NCBI GenBank assembly: GCA_002839375.1
Contig: PGXY01000003.1
Span: forward strand, 157,863 to 221,862
From: Spirochaetae bacterium HGW-Spirochaetae-1
Lineage (GTDB): Bacteria; Spirochaetota; UBA4802; UBA5550
DNA: 64,000 nucleotides
Reading direction: 5' to 3'
The notes under the pieces are model-generated. The model saw only the letters and a program-made list of their open reading frames with translations, was not told the origin of the DNA and did no database searches. The position numbers and the translations under genes are program-made. Numbering within the stretch: the stretch's first letter is position 1; each line of letters opens with the position of its first letter. Positions 33,379-64,000 of the stretch are shown here, piece after piece.

Positions 33379-33984
33379 ATGAATTTATTAAAAAAGATGA
33401 TACGCTGGATTGCTTTTAAATATGGTCGATTGTCCGGTCTTTATATAAAATTTTGCCAGCCCTCTGGAGATGAATATGCAAAATATTTGAAAAAGCATGG
33501 TCGATTCAGGTCAATTGGAGATAATTGTATAATCTATACTTTTACTAACATACCAGACCCAGAGTTGGTTCGAATAGGAAATAATGTTCTGCTAAGTGGT
33601 TGTTCCCTGTTCGCACACGATGGCTCGATTGCAATACTGAATCGAGCCTATAACGTTAAGCTGGACAAGGTAGGTAAAATCGATATAAAAGACAATGTAT
33701 TTATTGGGCATGGAGCCATTGTCCAGCCTGGAGTAACCATTGGTCCAAACGCCATTGTAGCCGCAGGCAGCGTTGTAGCATCTGATGTAACAGAAGGAAC
33801 TATAGTAGGCGGTGTACCTGCTCGCCCTATTGGGAAAGTTGACGACCTTGTTGTAAAACTTAAAAAAGAAACAGAACAATTACCCTGGAATGACTTGATT
33901 CAAAAACGTATCGGGGCTTATGACCCAGCTTTAGAGCCAGAATTAAAAAAGAGACGAATCGAATATTTTTTTGGTGATAATTAA
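33379..33984 (+). CDS. Hexapeptide-repeat (left-handed beta-helix) acyltransferase
   Basis: The 201-residue protein carries isoleucine-rich hexapeptide repeats (VFIGHGAIVQPGVTIGPNAI, then VAAGSVVASDVTEGTIVGG). It has the usual VPARPIGK closing motif of sugar O- or N-acetyltransferases. Acetyl-CoA is the likely donor, and the target is probably a sugar in the polymer. It follows the Wza-like gene by 38 bp. Confidence 0.87.
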   Translation: MNLLKKMIRWIAFKYGRLSGLYIKFCQPSGDEYAKYLKKHGRFRSIGDNCIIYTFTNIPDPELVRIGNNVLLSGCSLFAHDGSIAILNRAYNVKLDKVGKIDIKDNVFIGHGAIVQPGVTIGPNAIVAAGSVVASDVTEGTIVGGVPARPIGKVDDLVVKLKKETEQLPWNDLIQKRIGAYDPALEPELKKRRIEYFFGDN

Positions 33985-34141: not shown

Positions 34142-35257
34142 ATGTTTAGAAAAACCTTCGCTGAAATAGACCTGAGAGCAATCGGGAATAATATCAAGGT
34201 ACTAAAACAAAAAGCGGGCAATGATAAAAAAATTCTTCTGCCCGTAAAAGCCGATGCCTATGGGCATGGCATTGTTGAAGTATCAAGATATGTCGAAAAA
34301 AACAGTCTCATTGACATGCTCGGTGTTGCTACTCTTGATGAGGGTATTGAACTGAGAAATGCCGGCATCCGCCTGCCCATTCTTGTACTTGGCCTGATTA
34401 TACCTAACGAGGAATCAATACAAGCTATACTTGATTATGACCTTACACAGGTTGTTGCTAACATACTATTACCAACTAAAATATCACACTTGGCTAGACT
34501 GAAAGGTAAAAAAGCCAGGGTTCATTTAAAGGTTGATACCGGTATGGGCAGGATTGGATGCAGGCCCGAGGATGCAGCAGAAATAGCTGTGGATGTAGCC
34601 TCTCTTGAATCAATTCAACTTGAAGGTATATGTACACACTTTCCAGTGGCAGACGAAGAAGATACAGCATTTACCACCAGACAGATCAAGACATTTGCAA
34701 ATATCCTGATTCAGGTTGAAAAGCAGGGAATCCATATTCCCCTCAGGCATAGCTCAAACAGCGCCGGAATTGTATACTTTCAAGATGAAACAGTAAACAT
34801 GATAAGGCCTGGAATAATGTCCTATGGATACTTTCCTGCACCAGGCATTGATTTGAATGGCGTCAAGCTTGAACCTGCCATGTCATTAAAAAGCTGTATC
34901 ATTTTTTCCAAAAGAGTCTCCAAAGGCGTAGCCCTTTCCTATGGATTGACTTATACCACACCCGCAGATTCTAACATAGCCACTATCGCAATAGGATATG
35001 GAGATGGTTACAGCAGGTCTCTATCAAACAGAGCAAAAGTAATCATCAGGGGCAAGACCTATCCCGTGGTGGGCAGAGTCACCATGGACCAGCTTCTGAT
35101 AAACCTGGGAAATGATGATTATCCTTTGGGTGAAGAAGTAACTCTTTTTGGAAGGGAGATTGTCACGATCAATACTATTGCGGACTGGACAGGTACCATC
35201 TCATACGAAGTAACCTGCAGTATATCCAAGAGAGTTCCGAGACTATATAAGGAATAA
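34142..35257 (+). CDS. alr: Alanine racemase
   Basis: This 371-residue PLP-dependent, fold-type III enzyme interconverts L- and D-alanine. K36 (VKADAYGHG) binds PLP and Y267 (LSYG) is the second catalytic base. HLKVDTGMGRIG and GYGDGYSR are typical. Alr is a peptidoglycan housekeeping enzyme, so its place inside a polysaccharide locus, beside NRPS genes, suggests D-alanine may also be used for the polymer or peptide. Whether this is the only copy in the genome cannot be told. Confidence 0.95.
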   Translation: MFRKTFAEIDLRAIGNNIKVLKQKAGNDKKILLPVKADAYGHGIVEVSRYVEKNSLIDMLGVATLDEGIELRNAGIRLPILVLGLIIPNEESIQAILDYDLTQVVANILLPTKISHLARLKGKKARVHLKVDTGMGRIGCRPEDAAEIAVDVASLESIQLEGICTHFPVADEEDTAFTTRQIKTFANILIQVEKQGIHIPLRHSSNSAGIVYFQDETVNMIRPGIMSYGYFPAPGIDLNGVKLEPAMSLKSCIIFSKRVSKGVALSYGLTYTTPADSNIATIAIGYGDGYSRSLSNRAKVIIRGKTYPVVGRVTMDQLLINLGNDDYPLGEEVTLFGREIVTINTIADWTGTISYEVTCSISKRVPRLYKE

Positions 35258-36714: not shown

Positions 36715-37704
36715 ATGTCTGCAGATAATATCGATGTTGTCATTATAGGACGCAATGAAGGAAAACGACTCATTGCCTGCTTCAATTCAATTATCGGGCA
36801 AGTCAATCGTATCATATATGTGGATTCCGGTTCCACGGACGGCAGTGTAGAGAATGCACGCCAGATAGGCATTGAAGTAGTTGAACTGGATATGGCAATA
36901 CCTTTCACTGCAGCCAGGGGACGGAATGCGGGACTTGCAAAACTGAAAGAATCAAAACCCGTTCCGGAATTTGTCCAGTTTATCGATGGGGACTGTAAAA
37001 TAGCCGATGGATGGTTCGAAGCAGCCCTGGCAGGCATCAATAATCATCAGGATGTTGCAGCAGTATTCGGCAGAAGACGAGAAGAATTTCCTGATAAAAC
37101 ACCCTACAACAGGATTGTAGACATGGAGTGGCAAAGGCTTGTTGGGGAATCCGATTCCTGCGGCGGCGATGCACTCATGCGGATGAAAGCCCTGGAAGAA
37201 GTAGATGGCTATAATAATTCTCTTATTGCAGGTGAAGAGCCGGAGATGTGTCTTCGCATGCGGAGAAAAGGATGGAAAATTGTAAACATCGGGCATGAAA
37301 TGACCATCCATGATGCGAATATCACCCGGTTCGAACAAATGTGGAAACGAAGTGTACGCTGCGGACATGCCTATTTTGACGGCTTCCTGATGTATGGAAA
37401 ATCCAAAGATCGCTATAGAACTCATGAGGTGGTTTCAGTCCTTTTCTGGGCTCTGGTCATCCCCCTGATATCAATTGGGCTGATCCCGGTTTCAAAAGGA
37501 TTGAGTTTACTTTTATTATTCAGTTATCTTTTGCTCTGGTATCGCCTGAGGAAATGGCGGCTGAAAATGAAAAACAGCCCTGCCCATGCATCGCGATATG
37601 CAGCTTTTTATACTGTAGCAAAATTTGCCGAACTCCAAGGAATGCTTCAGAATTTATTTAAAAGAATGACAAACAAAAAAGCTGAAATCATAGAATATAA
37701 ATAA
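36715..37704 (+). CDS. Glycosyltransferase family 2
   Basis: The 329-residue GT-A transferase has VVIIGRNEGKRL, VDSGSTDGS, a DGDC motif (QFIDGDCKIAD), GGDALMRMKAL and GEEPEMCLRMRRKGW. The C terminus has one or two membrane segments (about 245-290). It lies 17 nt upstream of the next GT2 gene. Donor and acceptor are unknown. Confidence 0.88.
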   Translation: MSADNIDVVIIGRNEGKRLIACFNSIIGQVNRIIYVDSGSTDGSVENARQIGIEVVELDMAIPFTAARGRNAGLAKLKESKPVPEFVQFIDGDCKIADGWFEAALAGINNHQDVAAVFGRRREEFPDKTPYNRIVDMEWQRLVGESDSCGGDALMRMKALEEVDGYNNSLIAGEEPEMCLRMRRKGWKIVNIGHEMTIHDANITRFEQMWKRSVRCGHAYFDGFLMYGKSKDRYRTHEVVSVLFWALVIPLISIGLIPVSKGLSLLLLFSYLLLWYRLRKWRLKMKNSPAHASRYAAFYTVAKFAELQGMLQNLFKRMTNKKAEIIEYK

Positions 37705-37720
37705 CAATAACCAGAAGCCA

Positions 37721-38629
37721 ATGAAAGAAATCAGCATCATCACGGTAACATACAATTCCAAAGATTATATCGGGGAGGCATTTCGCGCCCTGGAAGCACC
37801 CTGTAAAGATGGAATTGTGGAATGGATTGTTGTTGATAATGCCAGCCAGGATGACACTGCAGACTTTATCAGCAAGGAATTCCCCTGGATTGAAGTAATA
37901 AAAAGTGAAGAGAACCTGGGATTCGGGCGGGGGAACAATCTTGGAGTCCGACATTCTCAGGCACCATATATTCTGTTTTTAAATCCCGATGCTGTTATTG
38001 ATATGCCTACTATTGAATGTATGCTCACTTTCATGAAAGAAAATCCCAAAGCAGGTATTACAGCCCCGGCGATTATTGAACCGGAAGGAACGCTTCAACC
38101 CTGGTTTTTATTTCCAACACCGCTGAGAATATTCATCAGAGCGATCGGTCTTGACCGATTGTTCAAACAGATGTTTTATATAAATCCCGGTTCTCTACCC
38201 CAACTGGTAGAATGTGTTGGAGGCGCTGTTTTTACGGTTCGGAGAGATGTATTTGAAGAATTGAGCGGTTTTGATCCAAAATTTTTTTTATACTGGGAAG
38301 AGACGGACCTCTGCCTGAGAGCAACTCAAAACGGCTGGGAAATATGGACCATTGGCGAGGCGGTTGCGCGACACACCAATGCAGTCAGTGCAAAAACACA
38401 TAATAAACCCATGTTCGCTGGCTGTATTTCCGAGCATTTTTTCCGGAGTCGTTACTACTATCTTCAAAAACACTATGGAAAGCTGCACGCATGGCTGACG
38501 GAAACTGTGGAGCTGATTTTATTATTCATATATTCTCTTGCTGGCAGGTTGACAAATCGTTCATTTAAGTATAAATTAAGAGAACGTCTATCGGGAACCC
38601 TTTATAAGCTCCCGGAAGATGTCCAGTGA
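37721..38629 (+). CDS. Glycosyltransferase family 2, rhamnosyltransferase-like
   Basis: The 302-residue GT-A enzyme has SIITVTYNSKDYIGEA, VDNASQDDT, LFLNPDAVI (the NPD form common in rhamnosyltransferases of the WbbL type), GGAVFTVRRDVFEEL and YWEETDLCLRATQNGW. With the rml genes in the same locus, dTDP-rhamnose is a plausible donor. Directly upstream of the NRPS. Confidence 0.9.
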   Translation: MKEISIITVTYNSKDYIGEAFRALEAPCKDGIVEWIVVDNASQDDTADFISKEFPWIEVIKSEENLGFGRGNNLGVRHSQAPYILFLNPDAVIDMPTIECMLTFMKENPKAGITAPAIIEPEGTLQPWFLFPTPLRIFIRAIGLDRLFKQMFYINPGSLPQLVECVGGAVFTVRRDVFEELSGFDPKFFLYWEETDLCLRATQNGWEIWTIGEAVARHTNAVSAKTHNKPMFAGCISEHFFRSRYYYLQKHYGKLHAWLTETVELILLFIYSLAGRLTNRSFKYKLRERLSGTLYKLPEDVQ

Positions 38630-38675: not shown

Positions 38676-41600
38676 ATGACTACAACATCAGCTACCATTG
38701 CAGGTTCGGCAGAAGAGAACAGCGTTACCCGGATACAGGCATCCCGACAACAGCAGCAGATCTGGATGCTGCAGCAGTTGTATCCAGACAGTCCAGCCTA
38801 TAATATCTCAACCGCTTTCAGGATAACAGGGAAACTGAATGTTGATGCCCTGAATCAGGTGTATATCAAATCAGTATGCTCTCATGATATCCTCCGCACA
38901 TATATCCACATGCACCAGGGAGAACTCCAGCAGGTCATCGCACCAGGCGGAAACATCTCAATGATACAAGAGACACTTGAGACCGGGAATGATCCGGATG
39001 TAAATGAATCTGTTAAACGATATATCCAGGAAAGGATATCGGTACCTTTTGATCCCGGGAAGGCACCACTTGTCAAGGCCTTTTTGTTGCACATAACGCA
39101 CAATGATCACCTGTTTTTACTTGTTGCCCATCAGGCAGTGATGGACCATGCCAGCATCGATTCACTGCTCCGGTATATGTCAAAGCAATACTCCCATTTT
39201 TACAAGGGATCTTCTTCCGTAGAACTGTCAGAACCGGTTCAGTATTCCGATTATGTCAAATATCAACTGCAGCAGATTGAAGATACTTCTTGTACCGAAA
39301 AACTCGGATACTGGAAAAATGCCGTATTGAGTCCTGACGGTTTTATTGATATACCTGTTGCACATACACGTCCCTCGACTCAGTCCTGGGATTTAGAAAA
39401 ATTTGACTACAACCTTCCCGGTCATCTGGCAACTGATATCAGCAAGCTGTCATTAGAAATGAATATTTCATCTCAATCTGTTTTTCTTGGAATATTTAAA
39501 ATCCTTCTGTTCCGTTATACAGGGAATGGAAGTTTTTCCATCGGCTTTCCTTTCTTGAACAGGGACATGGAAAGATTTAAAGATTTTGTTGGCCCCCTCG
39601 AAAATATCCTGCCTTTCACCTGCGACATATCCGATTCACCGGCAGTAAGAGAGGCGCTGATCAGAACTCAAGAAGCGTTGCACGAAGCATCAAAGCATCA
39701 GGACGTTACCTTCGATTCGGTTGTAGAGAACATCAAGCCACAGCCTGACCCCAGCTATAATCCCATATTCCAGGTTGGATTCCGATTCTTTACCTCCCCC
39801 CGCCTGAAGCTGGATGGACTGGAAACAATTATATATGACTGTGTTAATCAGGCTCCCGGCATAGATCTGGTCTTTAACGTTATTGAAGATGGAGGAAAAT
39901 TTACATTACAGATCATCTTTAATCCCACGCTGTTTGATCTTGCAGCAATTAATGCCTTTGCTGAACAATATGAGACTCTGCTTCGCGGGGCTTCGGCATC
40001 GAAAGATATTTCCATATCACTGATCAACCTGCTTCCTGAAACTGAAAAAAATAAACAATTGATCGAATGGAACAATACCGGGAAGCCTTATCCGAAACAT
40101 AGAAAAATACATGAGTTTTTTGAATACCAGGTATCACTGAATCCCGACAGTCTCGCCGTAGCTTTTGAAAAAAATACCCTTACCTACAGTGAATTGAACA
40201 AGCGGGCGAACCAGCTGGCGCACTTTTTACAGAAATTCAACGTCGGTCCCGGCATACTGGTAGGCATATACCTGGAGCGGTCATGTGAAATGATGGTCGC
40301 ATTGCTGGGTGTTCTGAAAGCGGGCAGCGGCTATATTCCCATGGACCCAGAGTATCCGAGGGACCGCATCGCGTATATTGCCGAAAATTCTAATGCGCCG
40401 GTAGTGATAACCCAGAAATCCCTGTTATCACTTCTACCTGAAACAAAGGCATCTATTATCTGCCTGGACAGGGACTGGGGTGAGATTGAAGCATGTCCAA
40501 CAGACAAGTTCCCCGACAATACAGGACCCGAAGATGTTGCTTACGTTATCTACACCTCGGGCTCGACAGGCAGGCCCAAGGGGGTCCAGATACCCCATGG
40601 TGCTGTCGCGAACTTGATGGCCAGCATGGCACGGAAACCGGGAATGAGCGCCGATGACATTCTCGTCTGTGTTACCACCTATTCCTTTGACCTGTCCGTC
40701 CCGGACCTGTACCTGCCGCTTTATACTGGTGCCCACACAATATTCGTTAAACGGGAAATCGCCGCAGATGGTGAACAGCTCTCGAAAATACTGAAAGAAA
40801 CAAGGGCAACCTTCATGCAGGCAACCCCTTCCACGTGGTCACTTCTTCTGGATTCCGGATGGGAGGGTTCAAAAGAGCTGACGGCTCTGTGCGGCGGAGA
40901 AGCATGGCCGGGCAAGCTTGCAAAAAGCCTGGTTCCCAAAGTCAAGGCTCTGTGGAACATGTACGGACCGACTGAAACGACGGTCTGGTCAACCTGTCAT
41001 CATATCGCAACTCCCGATACACCAGTCCTGATCGGTAGCCCCATGGATAACACATCTGTGTATATTCTTGATCAAAACAAGCAGCTGGTTCCCATAGGAG
41101 TTCCCGGAGAACTTTATATCGGCGGCCACGGCGTTTCGTTGGGCTACCTTGGCCGTCCTGATCTCAATGAAGCCAGTTTTATCACAAATCCCTTCAACAT
41201 CGAAGGCCATCCAAGAATTTATAAAACAGGTGATTCCGTCCGCTGCAGACATGATGGAAACCTTGAATACCTGAACCGGCTCGACAACCAGGTAAAAATC
41301 CGCGGACTGCGAATCGAACTGGGGGAAATAGAATCGGTGCTTCTCAAGTTTCCCAATGTAAAGCAGGGTGTTGTTGTTGTAAGGGAAGACAATAAAGATG
41401 ACAAACGCTTAGTCGGCTATTTTGTCTCCGGTGATAGTAAAAAAATTAGTGAGAAAGAACTCCGTGAACATTTAAAAAAAACACTGGCTTCATATATGGT
41501 CCCTCATAATCTTGTCCAGCTTGATGAACTGCCCAGAACCCCCAACGGTAAGGTAGACCGCAAGGCGCTGCCGGTTCCCCAGCAGACCGCGACAGACGAC

Positions 41601-44321
41601 AAGGCGCCCTACAAGGACCCGGCCGATTTGATTAAACTGCCGCTGGAAGATTGGTTTTATAAACCTGTATGGAAGCCAACCCCTTTGCATTCCCATGCCG
41701 AGATGCCGCAGGCCGCCACATGCCTGATTTTTCTCGATGAGGACGGAATCGGAGAAAAACTGGCATCCAGCCTAAGGGAAAAAGAATATGATGTCATTAC
41801 CGTTCGTTCTTCCGATACCTACTACAAGTTCAATGAAGAGGAATATTGTATCAACCCCGAACAGGGGCTTACCGATTATGCATCCCTGGCAGCTGATATT
41901 GCGGCAAGCGGGCGGTTCCCCAATCGAATTGCCCATCTATGGATGTTGACAGGAGAGGAAATATACAGACCCGGATCGAGTTTCTTCCACAGAAACCTGG
42001 AGCATGGATTTTACAGTATATTGTACATGCTGCAGGCATTCAACAGGCAGGGATTGACTGGTAGGAGTCAATTGCTTGTCGCCCTGAATGGTTCTCAAAA
42101 AGTATATAATGAAAATACACCTTACCCGGAAAAAGCATGCGTACTGGGACCGTGTATGGTTATAACCCGGGAGTTTCCTCAAATTAAAACAAGTATGGTC
42201 GATTTTGATTATCCTGTTAAAAGATCTAAAATTTTTCTGAATCCTAAAACTCATGCCAACAGGCTGCTCAAAAAACGTTGCGTCAAGAGACTTGAAAATG
42301 AGTTGCTGTTTCCAGCGGAAAACGAGGTTATCGCATATCGTAAAGGACGGCGATTCATAAAGCAATACGAGAGAGTCGCCCTGCCGTCTTCTTCACCGGC
42401 CGTGCTTCGTGAAAAGAGAGTATACCTAATTGCCGGAGGTCTGGGAAAAAAGGGAAAAGCAATAGCGCGATATCTCGCCGAACATATTCATGCACATCTC
42501 GTCATTGTCGATAAAAAGAAGCTTCCCAACAAAGAAGCATGGAATAATTTCCTAACCGGGGATGGGAAAGATCAGTCTATTGTCGATAATATAAATACGC
42601 TTCGTGAACTTGAATCTTATGGTCAGGAGGTTTTATTTTATTCTGCCGATGTTGCAGACGCCGGCCAGATGCAAAACCTGCTTGATGCTATTAAAATGAG
42701 ACTTGGCGCTGTCCATGGCGTTATCCATGCAGCATCCATAAATACGACAGGACCGATATTTACACAGAACAGCAACAAGCTGGAACATTCCCTTTCTGCC
42801 CGGATAACGGGAACGCTGGTGCTGGATCAGCTTTTCCGGGAATCTCCCCTGGATATATTCGTTTTATTCTCAACAAATGATACCGTAACAGCAATATCAG
42901 GAAAGGTTGCTGCTGTGGGAGCAGGCGCTTTCATGAATGCATATACAGAAAATTGTTCCGTGAACAAAAAAAGGAAAACGATCTGTCTGGATTGGGGAGA
43001 ATGGCGGTATTTTGAAACTCAACTGACTCCATCAGGAACCATGATGACTGATAATAAAAAATTCCAGGATTACATACGCAGGCAGGGGATAGAACCCCAT
43101 GAAGGCCAACTGGTTTTCGAAAAGGCCCTGGGAAAACAATCCGGTGTGCTGGTCGTTTCTCCGGTCAGCCTGCCTGACTACATATCGGAAATTGAGCAAA
43201 GGTACTCGGGTATCGATAGAGATGAATTGGTCGAACCTCGGGATGATATTGAACGAACCCTGGTTGAATACTGGAAAGAAATCATTGGCATCAGGCACTT
43301 AGGCATACGGCAGAATTTCTTTGACGTTGGCGGGCACTCATTGACAGCTGTCCGTCTTTTTGCAAAAATAAAACAGAAATATTCTGTTCAATTCCCCTTG
43401 GCCGTATTATTCAAGGCTCCAACCATAGAGGCCTGTGCAAAACTGATTCGTGATGAAATCCAGGGGAAAAGCGAAGGAGAAGCAGGCCAGGAATTTAAGT
43501 TCCTTGTAAAGATGCACGATGGCCCGGGAAACAATGAAGTTCCCATATACATTGCAGCCGGTGCCTTTGGCAATGTACTGAACCTCAGGCATCTTGCGCA
43601 ACTAATTGGTAATGATCGACCTGTTTACGGAATACAGGCGAAAGGATTACTGGGCTGCGAGCTCCCTCATGAAACCTACGAGACAACAGCAGCCGATTAC
43701 CTTAAAGAAGTGCGGCAGGTTCAGCCAAAGGGCTCGTATTTACTGGCCGGATTCTGCTCAGGCGGAACAATCGCATATGAGATGGCGCAACAGCTCACAG
43801 GTGATGGTGAAACCGTTTCTCATGTCATCATGCTGGATACTATCTCCCCGGACTGGAGGGAGACTCTTACAAGAAAGGACAAGATTACCTTTCATTTAAT
43901 GAATCTCAGATGTATCGGAATTAAATACCCATTTACCTGGTTTATCAGTCGTGTTAAATGGGAGTGGAAGAAAGTTGAGGAAAAGCTTGGCTTGAATAAA
44001 GAGAAAACAGGTCCGGCTGTTTTCCAGGGGAGGGCAATTTTTGATGCCACACTTAGAGCAGAGGACCGGTATAAACCGAAACCATATGACGGTAAAGTGA
44101 CCCTTTTCAGACCGAAACTGGATCAATACATCCACCTTGACGGCGGTCGAGTGATAAACAGGAAGAGGGAATTCGTGAGACCCGATGGCGGATGGTCACC
44201 TCATATAAGGCATTTTGACATTCAGGAAATAGCCGCGGAACCGGGAGACCATGATGGTTTTGTCCTTGAACCGGCAGTGCGCGATTTGTATTTTAAAATG
44301 AAAGCAGTATTGAAAAACTAA
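38676..44321 (+). CDS. NRPS: C-A-(degenerate KR)-PCP-TE, 1881 residues
   Basis: Domains in order are as follows. A condensation domain (about 17-450) has its HHxxxDG site reading HQAVMDH (152-158). An adenylation domain (about 465-970) has YTSGSTGRPKG near 626, FDLS with D672, and NGKVDRKAL. A ketoreductase-like domain (about 990-1490) has NADPH-type GGLGKKG at 1254-1260. PCP S1555 sits in DVGGHSL. The thioesterase has GFCSGG, with C1694 as nucleophile. The KR catalytic Lys, Ser, Tyr and Asn are replaced by R1376, T1400, A1413 and G1417, at exactly the expected spacing. The KR is therefore probably dead, and the C domain impaired. The retained Asp672 points to an amino-acid substrate. The product is unknown. 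Confidence 0.9.
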   Translation: MTTTSATIAGSAEENSVTRIQASRQQQQIWMLQQLYPDSPAYNISTAFRITGKLNVDALNQVYIKSVCSHDILRTYIHMHQGELQQVIAPGGNISMIQETLETGNDPDVNESVKRYIQERISVPFDPGKAPLVKAFLLHITHNDHLFLLVAHQAVMDHASIDSLLRYMSKQYSHFYKGSSSVELSEPVQYSDYVKYQLQQIEDTSCTEKLGYWKNAVLSPDGFIDIPVAHTRPSTQSWDLEKFDYNLPGHLATDISKLSLEMNISSQSVFLGIFKILLFRYTGNGSFSIGFPFLNRDMERFKDFVGPLENILPFTCDISDSPAVREALIRTQEALHEASKHQDVTFDSVVENIKPQPDPSYNPIFQVGFRFFTSPRLKLDGLETIIYDCVNQAPGIDLVFNVIEDGGKFTLQIIFNPTLFDLAAINAFAEQYETLLRGASASKDISISLINLLPETEKNKQLIEWNNTGKPYPKHRKIHEFFEYQVSLNPDSLAVAFEKNTLTYSELNKRANQLAHFLQKFNVGPGILVGIYLERSCEMMVALLGVLKAGSGYIPMDPEYPRDRIAYIAENSNAPVVITQKSLLSLLPETKASIICLDRDWGEIEACPTDKFPDNTGPEDVAYVIYTSGSTGRPKGVQIPHGAVANLMASMARKPGMSADDILVCVTTYSFDLSVPDLYLPLYTGAHTIFVKREIAADGEQLSKILKETRATFMQATPSTWSLLLDSGWEGSKELTALCGGEAWPGKLAKSLVPKVKALWNMYGPTETTVWSTCHHIATPDTPVLIGSPMDNTSVYILDQNKQLVPIGVPGELYIGGHGVSLGYLGRPDLNEASFITNPFNIEGHPRIYKTGDSVRCRHDGNLEYLNRLDNQVKIRGLRIELGEIESVLLKFPNVKQGVVVVREDNKDDKRLVGYFVSGDSKKISEKELREHLKKTLASYMVPHNLVQLDELPRTPNGKVDRKALPVPQQTATDDKAPYKDPADLIKLPLEDWFYKPVWKPTPLHSHAEMPQAATCLIFLDEDGIGEKLASSLREKEYDVITVRSSDTYYKFNEEEYCINPEQGLTDYASLAADIAASGRFPNRIAHLWMLTGEEIYRPGSSFFHRNLEHGFYSILYMLQAFNRQGLTGRSQLLVALNGSQKVYNENTPYPEKACVLGPCMVITREFPQIKTSMVDFDYPVKRSKIFLNPKTHANRLLKKRCVKRLENELLFPAENEVIAYRKGRRFIKQYERVALPSSSPAVLREKRVYLIAGGLGKKGKAIARYLAEHIHAHLVIVDKKKLPNKEAWNNFLTGDGKDQSIVDNINTLRELESYGQEVLFYSADVADAGQMQNLLDAIKMRLGAVHGVIHAASINTTGPIFTQNSNKLEHSLSARITGTLVLDQLFRESPLDIFVLFSTNDTVTAISGKVAAVGAGAFMNAYTENCSVNKKRKTICLDWGEWRYFETQLTPSGTMMTDNKKFQDYIRRQGIEPHEGQLVFEKALGKQSGVLVVSPVSLPDYISEIEQRYSGIDRDELVEPRDDIERTLVEYWKEIIGIRHLGIRQNFFDVGGHSLTAVRLFAKIKQKYSVQFPLAVLFKAPTIEACAKLIRDEIQGKSEGEAGQEFKFLVKMHDGPGNNEVPIYIAAGAFGNVLNLRHLAQLIGNDRPVYGIQAKGLLGCELPHETYETTAADYLKEVRQVQPKGSYLLAGFCSGGTIAYEMAQQLTGDGETVSHVIMLDTISPDWRETLTRKDKITFHLMNLRCIGIKYPFTWFISRVKWEWKKVEEKLGLNKEKTGPAVFQGRAIFDATLRAEDRYKPKPYDGKVTLFRPKLDQYIHLDGGRVINRKREFVRPDGGWSPHIRHFDIQEIAAEPGDHDGFVLEPAVRDLYFKMKAVLKN

Positions 44322-44348: not shown

Positions 44349-46064
44349 TTAATGCATCTTAAATCCAACTCGAATATAATCATTGATGACTCCCGCAGTA
44401 AGTTCCTCCCGCCAGTTCAATCGGTTTTGTTTTTTTACAGCAGTAATAAAACCTTCAATTGTATTATGCAATCCAAGTGTTGTTGCATAACTGCCAATGG
44501 TTCGTTCCGGATCGATGAATTTTCGTTTCCAGAAAACAGCACTGGCTTCACCTGAAATGGTTGCCCATTGAGCAAGTGTTTGCCGCACCCCGCTAACGCA
44601 GAACCATTTATCCCCCTTGCCACTGAAATAACGATTATTTTGATACACAACATTAATAAAATTACCCTGATGATCGATAAGACATGAATCATGGGAAGGA
44701 TCAACAATGGTGTTATTTGATATTACGATGTGCTTCCATTCATCTTTGGGAATGACGTAAAGTGAACGTTGTTTTAGATTGTAAAATACATTCCCTCTTA
44801 TGGCGATATATGATTCTGAATTACCTCCAAGCCGAATACCATAGGCGTTGGTGTACCAGGGTTGGTGAAGAAAGTAATTCTTTTCGATAATAGTGTTATT
44901 GTTATCCTGTACATCCAGCATCCAGGAAAAATTTCGTTTTGTCGAATTACATTTTCCAATCTGAGTAAAAACATTATCCCTGATTGTCACGCTTGAAAAC
45001 CGATGTTTTTCTTTAGTGTTGCCTCCAATACTTAAACCAATTTCGCCGCCAGCCAGCAGGTTATTTTCAAACACCAGGTGATTCGTATCACCGATCTCGT
45101 CTGACCGAATTTTAATGCCCATGCTCGAGGCTCGTGTAATGATATTCTCACGCACAATCAGCCTGTTAGCATTGAGATACATATTGTGGTTATACATGGT
45201 GGCACATGCAGTAACTATTTTATTATTCCAGCCGTTGTGATCAAAGATATTGCCTTCTATGGTGAGGTCTGTAACGTGCGATGCATACATGCCTGAAGGA
45301 CGATAGGCTGCGTTCTGGCCACAGGTATTTACATGATAGTTGTATTCAATAATGTTGCGTCGTATCTTCACATTTTCATAATGGTATTGACCATAGGATT
45401 GTATAATCAGTTCACCATACAGGATATGACAGTCTTCTATTAAAAGCCCTGTTCCGCCGCCTACATAGCGGAATCCCCCCCCGGTAGCCCCGTCAAAGGC
45501 GGGATCGCCGGGTATTTTTGTAAACGATACGATTTGCAGACCAGTAACAGCAACAAAGCTGCGGGACTGGCCATCATGGTCAATGAAATGTCCTTTGACT
45601 TCGATACGGGGCCGTCTGGAAGATTCTCCATAAGACCCAATTACCAGGGGGTGCACTGCATCCAGACCTGATTTAAACTGACCCAGACTTTCTCCGCGCC
45701 AGGTATCGCCCCGCTGCAACAGCATGAAATCATTGTGTCCGTCACGGACCAGCCTTGATGCACAATTTAGCGTTTTAACCGCATTTTGAGGTGAACTGCC
45801 ATCGCTGGCATCATTACCCGATGATGAACTAACATAGACGATAATGCTGTCCCTGCCAGGAATTAATGGTGTGAAGCCATTTTCATGCTCAGTTGTGGAA
45901 GTTGAATTATATTCAGTAGCTGCCTTTAAATACAGGTTTCCCAATTGAAACCCATTAAAGATAGCAACTATTAATATTGAATAGAAGGCAACAAAAAAGA
46001 AAAACTTATGGCGTATAACGCTAAATACAAATTTGCAATTAATTCTACTTATATTTATTCTCAT
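44349..46064 (-). CDS. Membrane-anchored right-handed parallel beta-helix protein
   Basis: The 571-residue protein has an N-terminal anchor (about 20-40) and IVYVSSSSGNDASDG, the usual opening of beta-helix polysaccharide-processing proteins. Many beta-helix coils follow (LTIEGNIFDHNG, LIVRENIITRAS, LVFENNLLAGG). It may be a lyase, epimerase or glycan-binding protein. It could start at TTG 46082 (weak GGCGG upstream) rather than ATG 46064. It is convergent with the NRPS, 28 bp away, and downstream of a GT4 gene on the same strand. Confidence 0.8.
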   Translation of the reverse strand: MRINISRINCKFVFSVIRHKFFFFVAFYSILIVAIFNGFQLGNLYLKAATEYNSTSTTEHENGFTPLIPGRDSIIVYVSSSSGNDASDGSSPQNAVKTLNCASRLVRDGHNDFMLLQRGDTWRGESLGQFKSGLDAVHPLVIGSYGESSRRPRIEVKGHFIDHDGQSRSFVAVTGLQIVSFTKIPGDPAFDGATGGGFRYVGGGTGLLIEDCHILYGELIIQSYGQYHYENVKIRRNIIEYNYHVNTCGQNAAYRPSGMYASHVTDLTIEGNIFDHNGWNNKIVTACATMYNHNMYLNANRLIVRENIITRASSMGIKIRSDEIGDTNHLVFENNLLAGGEIGLSIGGNTKEKHRFSSVTIRDNVFTQIGKCNSTKRNFSWMLDVQDNNNTIIEKNYFLHQPWYTNAYGIRLGGNSESYIAIRGNVFYNLKQRSLYVIPKDEWKHIVISNNTIVDPSHDSCLIDHQGNFINVVYQNNRYFSGKGDKWFCVSGVRQTLAQWATISGEASAVFWKRKFIDPERTIGSYATTLGLHNTIEGFITAVKKQNRLNWREELTAGVINDYIRVGFKMH

Positions 46065-46132
46065 TGTTGTAAAACCATTCAACTATTCCGCCTGTATTCT
46101 CAATGCAAAGACTCGATCCTGTGCATGAAATT

Positions 46133-60463: not shown

Positions 60464-61600
60464 TCAATCGTCCTCTTTCTCCGCTTTTTGGGGCAAAGCT
60501 TTTGAGCTAATTGCTTCACGTATATTAATGATGGCTCGCAGAGCATCAACAGCCAGGTTGCTCAACAATGAGCCGTTTGAAGTATAGAAAATTCCTACGC
60601 TTACAAAGTCTGGATGCCAGCGATCAATCCAGCCAACACCTGTCACAAAGCTTATCGTATCAATGCTCTTCTCCTGACAATAATGCTCTATCAATTTGTA
60701 AAGGAGCAAAAAGCCCGGGCTGTACTCTGAAAAATCTTCTCGAAAACCGATTTTTAAAAGATGAAGCCTGTTTCTAATAGCTATTCCAAACTGGGCTGCA
60801 ATTGCCTCGCCATTTAATGTCAGAAGGATAATCCTACATAATCCGAGCTCACCAAAGTGCTGTTTAAAATATTGATAATACCTCAATTTATCTGCCTGTT
60901 TTATTATGCTGGTGCCATCATGTCCCTTCCAACCGGAATCTTCCACATGCAGAAAGTAATCAAATGCCGCATTCAGTTCATCACTGTTTTTAAAAATCCT
61001 TAATTCAAGCTGCCCTTGCTCCTCAATTTTTCGCATTTTTTTTAACAGCCCTTTGCGAAACTTACTGCTATACCGTTCAATAAATTCCAAAAAGCCACTT
61101 TCAAAGTGAAGATACTTCGAATAATGGGTATGACGAAATGATTTATCCATATCCAATGAAACAGCATATCCATTTTCCGGAAGGCATTGCCAGCGCATTA
61201 ATAGAAAAAAAGGCAATGCTTTTCGGAGTGTCTTTACGGCATCGTTCCAGTAAGGAGATAGTGAAGTACTGGCAATAACATCGTTCACACCCATTTCATT
61301 TGGGTAGTATAATTGAACAATTGGAATGTTAAATAATTTTACTTTAATTTTTACCCATTGAAATGAAAGCACTGCAAAAAGAGAACCTTTTAAATCCGAA
61401 AGGGATACAAAATATGTATTATCACCACCACTTCGTTGAAGCTCCGCTCCATACCAGGCGGGAAAGTGCAGAAAATGCGTACCCGATTTCCCTGCCAGTT
61501 CATTCCAGGCGGCTTCCAGCTTCTCAAATCCTTGCAGTCCCTTATATACTGCTATTTGAATTCCCGAACTAGTCGTTTTTAATAGCGGATTCTGGTTCAT
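60464..61600 (-). CDS. FemAB/BioF2-like GNAT acyltransferase
   Basis: The 378-residue protein has the Acetyltransf_6 (BioF2-like) domain at about 170-320 (FRKGLLKKMRKIEEQG, VEDSGWKG, GEAIAAQFGIAI), as in FemAB-type proteins of exosortase-associated polysaccharide loci. These transfer amino acids or acyl groups to amines. The start overlaps the upstream NRPS by 32 nt, so the two are coupled and probably act on the same product. No ribosome-binding site is visible, which fits translational coupling. Confidence 0.85.
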   Translation of the reverse strand: MNQNPLLKTTSSGIQIAVYKGLQGFEKLEAAWNELAGKSGTHFLHFPAWYGAELQRSGGDNTYFVSLSDLKGSLFAVLSFQWVKIKVKLFNIPIVQLYYPNEMGVNDVIASTSLSPYWNDAVKTLRKALPFFLLMRWQCLPENGYAVSLDMDKSFRHTHYSKYLHFESGFLEFIERYSSKFRKGLLKKMRKIEEQGQLELRIFKNSDELNAAFDYFLHVEDSGWKGHDGTSIIKQADKLRYYQYFKQHFGELGLCRIILLTLNGEAIAAQFGIAIRNRLHLLKIGFREDFSEYSPGFLLLYKLIEHYCQEKSIDTISFVTGVGWIDRWHPDFVSVGIFYTSNGSLLSNLAVDALRAIINIREAISSKALPQKAEKEDD

Positions 61601-64000
61601 ATTGTTGCATTATGTCGTAAATATTTTTTACGCATTTTCCGTCCAGCATTTCGATATGATCTGCCTTTATATTATGAATGCGTAATTTTCCTTTGACATA
61701 CTCCGTAAGCCGATAATCCTGATAAGACCGCATGCCAAATCCGAAATATGTCTCTGTGGCTTTTATCAAAACGCAGTCAATTGCATAAGTATTATTTTCT
61801 TTCATGAAAACGCGTGCAGCCCGGTCAAATGCTCTTTCCCTCTCTTTTTGATCATTAACTGCGGATTCAGCAGATTTTCTTATTTCCGGCTTTTGAGAAT
61901 ATATAAATTTGCGAATTTTCCCAAGAAAACGCTTAAACATCTCTGAAGGCCCTTCGATACTAATGCACTTAATTGCGTCCGCTGCTAAACCCCGGCATGA
62001 GCGATATATGCTGATATCGGTATAGGAATCAAGCAGATACGTGTTGTGTACAACAACACCCTCCGCGATTAATTTTTTAGCAACTTCGAGACATATAAAC
62101 CCACCAAAAGACAGTCCTACCAGTGTGAGCGCTTGAGGTCTGCCCTGACGAAGAAGTGCACTTTTGTATGATTCCACCAAAGCATCAAAGGAAAAATCAA
62201 TACTTTGATTATTGGCTTCTGCATTAAGAAAAGTAACTTCCTCTGATGCGAAGATACCATACACCGGTCTCAGGCCCTGAAAGCATTCAGCCAGTTCGGC
62301 GTATATCTGAACTCCGCACATACAAAATATAGGATCACCATGTCTGGCGTTATTCAGCTTAACAACGTTTGATGCCCGCCTTTCTTCTTTACCTATATGA
62401 CAGCGAATTTGACGAATTGTCGGAGATTCGAAAAATACGGATAACGGGAAATCCAACCCGGTAGCTACTTTCATTTCCTTTATAGCCTGCAAAACCAGGA
62501 GAGAATGCCCACCCAAATCGAAAAAATTATCGTCTATACTGATCTTATTTATACAAAGTAAAGAGGCCCATACATACATCAAACTCCGATCGAGGTCATC
62601 CCGCGGATCAATAACATAGATGCTTTCGGCCTCCCCCAATCGGTCAACACCTTCCCTTGCCAGAGCTTTTCGGTCAATTTTAAAATTTGCCGTCATTGGA
62701 AATAATGTAACATAAATGAAATGCTGCGGTACCATATACTCAGGCAATCGTTGTTTGCAGAAATCACGTAATGTGGTATTTTTGTCAGGTTCGCCCATGT
62801 AAAAGGCAATTAAACGAACGTCACCAGCGCTTAATTCAGAGGCGACGACAACACTTTGTTGCACTAAAGAATGTTGTGCTAAAACCTGTTCAATTTCCGA
62901 TGGTTCTATTCGAAATCCGCGGATTTTAATCTGATTGTCGATGCGGTTGATATACTCAATATTTTCATCAGGCCCCTTTTTAACAAGGTCTCCCGTACGA
63001 TAAACTCTTTCACCGGATTTCAGCGTTATAAACATTTTATCGGTTAACGTATCATTGTTATAGTAACCGAGAGCAACACCTTCACCTCCTATCAACAATT
63101 CTCCCGACGATTTTTCGGAAACAGGTTCCAGTTTTTCGTCAACGATATAAAGCCGGGTATTTTTAATCGGCCTTCCGAGATATACTTTTTTATAACTATC
63201 CAATTTAAAACATGTGGACCATACTGTTGTCTCGGTAGGACCATACATGTTCCAGACTTCCTTTGCCGCCCGAAGGAGTGTTGCCTTTAAATCAAGAGGG
63301 AAAATTTCTCCACCTATTAAAATTTTTAGCTTGCGCTTAGGTCGCCAGCCATTTTCCAGGATCATGCGCCAGGTCGCGGGTGTTGCCTGCATTACAGTAA
63401 TATTACGGCTGTCAATAAGCTCACGCAACAAACTTTGCGATATGCTTTCTTCTCTCGTAGCCAAAATCAGATGCGCTCCAACAAATAGAGGCAGAAATAT
63501 TTCCAGAACATGAATATCAAATGAAATTGTAGTTATCGCTAATAAACAATCATTGTTTGCTAGACCAGGTTCAATGGCCATGGATTCGATAAAATTGAGC
63601 AAATTTGCCTGACTCACAGCCACTCCCTTAGGATTCCCCGTTGAACCGGATGTATAGATAATGTAGGCGACGTCATTTTTATCAGCGGTATCACTTGCCA
63701 GAGACACGTTATTCGAAACCGTCAACGCTGAAGAGCGTGCAACTAATTCGTTCAAGTTAACAACGGAACCACCAAACTTCGGCACTATTTTGTTATGATC
63801 AAATATCGCAATTTTTGCCCGAGAGTTCTCCAGAATACAGGATTGTCTTTGTTGAGGAAAAGCAGGATCGACCGGGACATAAGCGGCTCTTAAAGACCAT
63901 ATGGCCAGCAATAATGGAACCAGTGATTCATTGCGGGAAATCCCCACAGCGACTTTATCACCCGGGTAAATTCCATGACTTTTCAATGCCAGAGCAAACG
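61569..64000 (-). CDS. NRPS: adenylation-PCP-thioesterase, partial (continues past right edge)
   Basis: The visible 810 or so residues start inside the adenylation domain; the frame is open to the window end, so upstream domains such as condensation may exist. The A domain has YTSGSTGNPKG, ISFDIHVLE, MYGPTETTVW and NRIDNQIKIRGFRIEPSE, ending FKIDRKAL. A PCP (DLGGHSL) and a type I thioesterase with GLSFGG (canonical Ser) follow. The A domain's specificity pocket looks Gly-like. It overlaps the FemAB-like gene by 32 nt. The product is unknown. Confidence 0.9.
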   Translation of the reverse strand, partial: FALALKSHGIYPGDKVAVGISRNESLVPLLLAIWSLRAAYVPVDPAFPQQRQSCILENSRAKIAIFDHNKIVPKFGGSVVNLNELVARSSALTVSNNVSLASDTADKNDVAYIIYTSGSTGNPKGVAVSQANLLNFIESMAIEPGLANNDCLLAITTISFDIHVLEIFLPLFVGAHLILATREESISQSLLRELIDSRNITVMQATPATWRMILENGWRPKRKLKILIGGEIFPLDLKATLLRAAKEVWNMYGPTETTVWSTCFKLDSYKKVYLGRPIKNTRLYIVDEKLEPVSEKSSGELLIGGEGVALGYYNNDTLTDKMFITLKSGERVYRTGDLVKKGPDENIEYINRIDNQIKIRGFRIEPSEIEQVLAQHSLVQQSVVVASELSAGDVRLIAFYMGEPDKNTTLRDFCKQRLPEYMVPQHFIYVTLFPMTANFKIDRKALAREGVDRLGEAESIYVIDPRDDLDRSLMYVWASLLCINKISIDDNFFDLGGHSLLVLQAIKEMKVATGLDFPLSVFFESPTIRQIRCHIGKEERRASNVVKLNNARHGDPIFCMCGVQIYAELAECFQGLRPVYGIFASEEVTFLNAEANNQSIDFSFDALVESYKSALLRQGRPQALTLVGLSFGGFICLEVAKKLIAEGVVVHNTYLLDSYTDISIYRSCRGLAADAIKCISIEGPSEMFKRFLGKIRKFIYSQKPEIRKSAESAVNDQKERERAFDRAARVFMKENNTYAIDCVLIKATETYFGFGMRSYQDYRLTEYVKGKLRIHNIKADHIEMLDGKCVKNIYDIMQQYEPESAIKND

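Follow-up and report, generated by a model that had tools for sequence, protein, structure and literature searches.

The gene and its neighbourhood

The window, by which we mean the whole stretch of 64,000 nucleotides that was analysed, carries an uninterrupted forward-strand reading frame of 1881 aa (38676-44321) in which Pfam matches give the order condensation (C), adenylation (A), ketoreductase (KR), carrier (PCP) and thioesterase (TE). The gene stands in a polysaccharide locus with an EpsH exosortase with DUF3485, rhamnose-pathway genes, a PEP-CTERM-type export protein, several glycosyltransferases, a flippase, a UDP-GlcNAc 2-epimerase and an alanine racemase. The features are listed below, where L022 is the single relative of the protein that we found.

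33379..33984, + strand: hexapeptide acetyltransferase; a clear ortholog adjoins the L022 NRPS gene
36715..37704, + strand: glycosyltransferase, 44% identity to a glycosyltransferase of the Parasedimentitalea PKS locus
37721..38629, + strand: family 2 glycosyltransferase, directly upstream of the NRPS gene
38676..44321, + strand: putative NRPS-PKS chimera (ORF call), 1881 aa, Pfam order C-A-KR-PCP-TE
38736..40058, + strand: condensation domain (Pfam Condensation, residues 21-461)
40107..41570, + strand: adenylation domain (residues 478-965; Pfam AMP-binding at 482-825 and its C-terminal part at 884-959)
41628..42380, + strand: structural (N-terminal) subdomain of the KR (residues 985-1235; 75% identity to L022; Pfam Beta-ketacyl_N at 1017-1180)
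42417..43010, + strand: catalytic subdomain of the KR, without the catalytic tetrad (residues 1248-1445; Pfam KR at 1249-1444)
43230..43475, + strand: peptidyl/acyl carrier domain with the serine of GGHSL intact (residues 1519-1600; Pfam PP-binding at 1528-1590)
43497..44318, + strand: thioesterase domain with nucleophile Cys1694 in GFCSGG (Pfam Thioesterase at residues 1624-1729)
61569..63986, - strand: second NRPS-like protein, A-PCP-TE, 855 aa from an ATG (L007); its start lies beyond the window

The alanine racemase gene (34142-35257) lies upstream of the NRPS gene, with three glycosyltransferase genes intervening. Convergent with the NRPS gene is a gene for a 577-aa protein (44349-46082, - strand) that matched no family and by eye resembles a secreted beta-helix.

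Ketoreductase, condensation and thioesterase sites

The Lys-Ser-Tyr-Asn tetrad of functional PKS/SDR ketoreductases is absent from the KR of the window protein, where the four positions are occupied by R1376, T1400, A1413 and G1417, confirming what the sequence-only reading had proposed. That reading also held the alignment to be firm from the spacing of 24-13-4, and this is borne out by alignments to the PksJ and MlnE KRs from the PDB, which are gap-free around the catalytic positions, and by a 20-row alignment of the window protein, L022 and 18 other KRs, in which the others keep the Lys (18/18), the Ser (18/18), the Tyr (17/18) and the Asn (17/18). We found no alternative alignment that would restore Tyr and Asn. 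AlphaFold models of the KR region were too poor for use, with a pLDDT of 34 for the sequence alone and 37 with a two-sequence alignment.

A scan of 84,980 genomes returned only L022. Its contig, of 3.7 kb, comes from a MAG that carries the label Oligoflexia and may be misbinned. Because the scan recognises only exact peptide patterns from the region, absence elsewhere is weak evidence. Searches with the KR gave no ortholog in the rest of the class (45 genomes, or 46 with the window's own) or among about 390 genomes of the phylum. The C domain and the greater part of the A domain are missing from L022, which puts the C motif outside the comparison, and a search of its MAG for the N-terminal half led only to the contig edge. 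Over the 950 residues that they have in common the two proteins are 71% identical, with values of 57% for the KR catalytic subdomain, 75% for its N-subdomain and 80-81% for TE and PCP. For the KR the ratio dN/dS is about 0.13, a rough figure with dS near saturation. Its catalytic subdomain is less conserved than the neighbouring parts, yet it is still constrained by purifying selection.

The tetrad of L022 reads K-S-V-G and that of the related PKS KRs K-S-Y-N. Because L022 has kept Lys and Ser, the loss of Tyr and Asn is a derived state common to both proteins, and the changes of Lys to Arg and Ser to Thr are local to the window protein. A purely local mutation is thus rejected for Tyr and Asn, which L022 is also without, and accepted for Lys and Ser; of the four substitutions put forward for a survey of homologues, only the losses of Tyr and Asn are conserved.

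The earlier statement that the NADPH motif is kept holds for the glycines of GxGxxG and fails for the rest of the site, where T1253 is replaced by Ala, L/I1259 by Lys, G1279 by Asp and G1354 by Ser, unlike most or nearly all relatives. All four changes are present in both the window protein and L022; the Arg that follows strand 2 is retained in L022 and is Lys in the window KR. Because the nucleotide-binding site has changed as well, binding of a cofactor by the window KR is doubtful. Of the proposal that the domain was retained as a structural or binding unit after catalysis was lost, retention fits the purifying selection and the common loss of Tyr and Asn, and cofactor binding is the part in doubt.

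PKSs are known to contain inactive KRs that may persist for structural reasons (PMC6941969; PMC5331325), and the residue losses described here are consistent with the C1 type, which neither reduces nor epimerises. Similar to the C1-type or KR0 domains of modular PKSs, a non-reducing KR has been retained with a possible structural role (PMC6941969, PMC5331325). The window KR differs from them in that it belongs to an NRPS module, where it follows an A domain of the amino-acid type, and in that all four residues of the tetrad are lost, two of them (Tyr and Asn) in L022 also. Epimerising, non-reducing KRs of the C2 type are known as well (PMC5331325), and together with the retained GxGxxG glycines and the purifying selection they could suggest that the domain uses other residues for a non-reductive activity, either epimerisation or NAD(P)-dependent gating. 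We regard this as unlikely, because epimerisation implicates the active-site Tyr and Ser (PMC5331325), of which the first is absent here and the second is Thr, because the nucleotide site carries the changes of Gly to Asp, Thr to Ala and Leu/Ile to Lys, and because glycine, the substrate predicted below, has no stereocentre.

Two further sites have changed. The HHxxxDG motif of the C domain reads HQAVMDH (residues 152-158; 39129-39149), with the second His replaced by Gln. Almost all C domains aligned from other NRPSs have HH at this place, among them those of all five NRPS loci in this genome. The TE nucleophile is Cys1694 (43755-43757), as in L022, whereas the seven related PKS thioesterases have Ser in G[FY]SGGG. 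With the C motif reading HQxxxDH, the KR tetrad lost and the TE Ser changed to Cys, the whole protein might be taken for a decaying pseudo-enzyme whose product is no longer made. We find this quite improbable: the frame is open over 1881 aa, a relative of 71% identity keeps both GFCSGG and GGHSL, nonsynonymous change is much rarer than synonymous change, and Cys-type thioesterases occur in other NRPSs, as with the GWCFGG of 4zxh.

Ancestry of the KR-ACP-TE half and substrate of the A domain

Among plasmids the KR is best matched by type I PKSs of alphaproteobacteria, and the same PKSs are the best matches of the ACP-TE part, at 41-44% identity. Two of them that we checked (L029, L030) have the domain order KS-AT-KR-DH-ACP-TE, and the window protein aligns with their KR and ACP-TE and skips the DH region. 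In the KR phylogeny (IQ-TREE), the window protein and L022 join seven alphaproteobacterial PKS KRs with support of 100/98. A grouping of this KR with L043 and L044, two cyanobacterial A-KR proteins that we read as keto-acid modules because of their A-KR fusion, is rejected (p-AU 0.00014). The KR and ACP-TE thus belong to the lineage of the polysaccharide-locus type I PKSs that neighbour Atu3671, and C-A stands where these have KS-AT, with DH absent, so that the window protein is a derivative of this PKS family and not a member of it. Because of the KR tree, the ACP-TE matches, the skipped DH and the rejected keto-acid origin, the protein is best read as the back half of a PKS to which C-A has been joined instead of KS-AT. 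Searching the genome for the KS family gave only two short matches (frames of 395 and 438 aa), and therefore no type I PKS that would feed a KR is evident.

The related PKSs, from Ruegeria, Aminobacter, Shinella, Parasedimentitalea and Paracoccus, are collinear with the window protein (29-37% identity in KR, 41-44% in ACP-TE), and like it they have glycosyltransferase genes nearby in polysaccharide loci; that of Ruegeria also includes exosortase and rhamnose genes. They differ in having KS-AT for C-A, an intact Lys-Ser-Tyr-Asn tetrad, a DH (in the two checked) and a Ser TE. They also adjoin an NRPS with a monooxygenase of the MupA/Atu3671 family, and this partner has a Gly-like A-domain code; the window's genome gave no TIGR04020 monooxygenase match, in a search where control genomes gave sub-cut-off matches only. 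On the alphaproteobacterial plasmids L038 and L033-L036 we observed the type I PKS together with the MupA/Atu3671 monooxygenase NRPS and glycosyltransferases, and on L038 also exosortase XrtD. Neither Atu3670 nor Atu3671 was found mentioned by name in the open-access literature searched.

The A domain has the code DLPQLGMVWK, with the equivalents of Asp235 (D672) and Lys517 (K959) present and YGPTE intact. The codes of its closest A domains are DILQLGMIWK and DILQLGLVWK, of which the first, alike at 7/10 positions, has been reported for Gly (PMC12283262). From the code, glycine is the most likely predicted substrate, and because glycine carries no keto group the KR would have nothing to reduce.

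The order C-A-KR-PCP-TE had been read as that of a protein which has abandoned the activation of an alpha-keto acid and its reduction to a hydroxy acid. The nominal order does match the A-KR-PCP of StsA-type depsipeptide modules, and the PDB matches include an A-KR structure (6ulw). In keto-acid A domains Asp235 is replaced, and StsA also replaces a proline conserved in amino-acid A domains (PMC11253843), which we assume to be that of YGPTE. The window protein has both residues and a code like that for glycine, so that the A-domain specificity residues are unlike those of such modules (PMC11253843); nor is the KR one of the A-KR lineage with an intact tetrad, since KR and TE are both of PKS lineage and the grouping with the A-KR proteins is rejected as above. 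These results speak against the former claim, and we consider it very improbable that the protein descends from a depsipeptide-type module which activated and reduced an alpha-keto acid before the reduction was lost.

A predicted glycyl-loading chimera in a polysaccharide locus

The reading that we think probable is that of a chimera of C-A on a KR-ACP-TE half, which loads glycine, keeps its KR in a non-catalytic role and releases or transfers the product by a Cys thioesterase. An NRPS C-A would have taken the place of KS-AT in a polysaccharide-locus type I PKS, with DH lost and the KR-ACP-TE back half remaining. The A domain would charge the carrier domain with an amino acid, glycine being the most likely, and with neither a beta-keto nor an alpha-keto thioester formed the KR would be left without a substrate. 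It would then have lost Tyr and Asn, as in L022, and in the window protein also Lys and Ser. Most likely, catalysis was lost because the partner A domain loads glycine, which is without a reducible keto group, and the folded KR may have stayed between A and PCP as a linker or scaffold without catalytic function. The Cys thioesterase would release the aminoacyl group or transfer it, with some constituent of the exopolysaccharide that the surrounding genes make as a plausible acceptor. As a functional analogy only, AlmE has an A domain that loads Gly for a surface glycan (PMC11253843); the window protein differs as a C-A-KR-PCP-TE megasynthase, for which we infer the glycan transfer.

A role in surface polysaccharide is likely because of the genes of the locus and because its glycosyltransferases are related to those of the PKS loci. 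Besides the 44% match to Parasedimentitalea, the family 2 glycosyltransferase (37721..38629) is 33% identical to the one that immediately follows the related PKS gene in Ruegeria. The Ruegeria locus includes exosortase XrtD, rfbABCD and a flippase, and the related PKSs stand among glycosyltransferase genes. The acetyltransferase adjoining the L022 gene is a clear ortholog of that at 33379-33984, and therefore the link to polysaccharide-type genes is also common to both proteins. In this setting the polysaccharide could plausibly be decorated with glycyl groups. More broadly, and tentatively, exosortase/exopolysaccharide loci may carry a PKS/NRPS family for acyl or aminoacyl decoration, of which one branch would have become, through the exchange of KS-AT for C-A, a glycyl-loading transferase whose altered C domain, dead KR and Cys-type TE cooperate in aminoacyl transfer.

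What is new is the setting, in which an exosortase-linked polysaccharide locus encodes an apparent NRPS-PKS chimera whose C, KR and TE sites have all changed; a text search of the open-access literature for megasynthases in such loci gave an incidental match at most. The protein would represent a natural replacement of PKS by NRPS domains that left the inherited KR in place without its catalytic residues, which bears on the question of which domains a megasynthase requires as scaffold, and it points to megasynthases embedded within exosortase-linked polysaccharide loci. The second NRPS-like protein of the window (61569..63986) also has a glycine-like code, DILQLGMVWK, and its TE nucleophile is Ser (GLSFGG).
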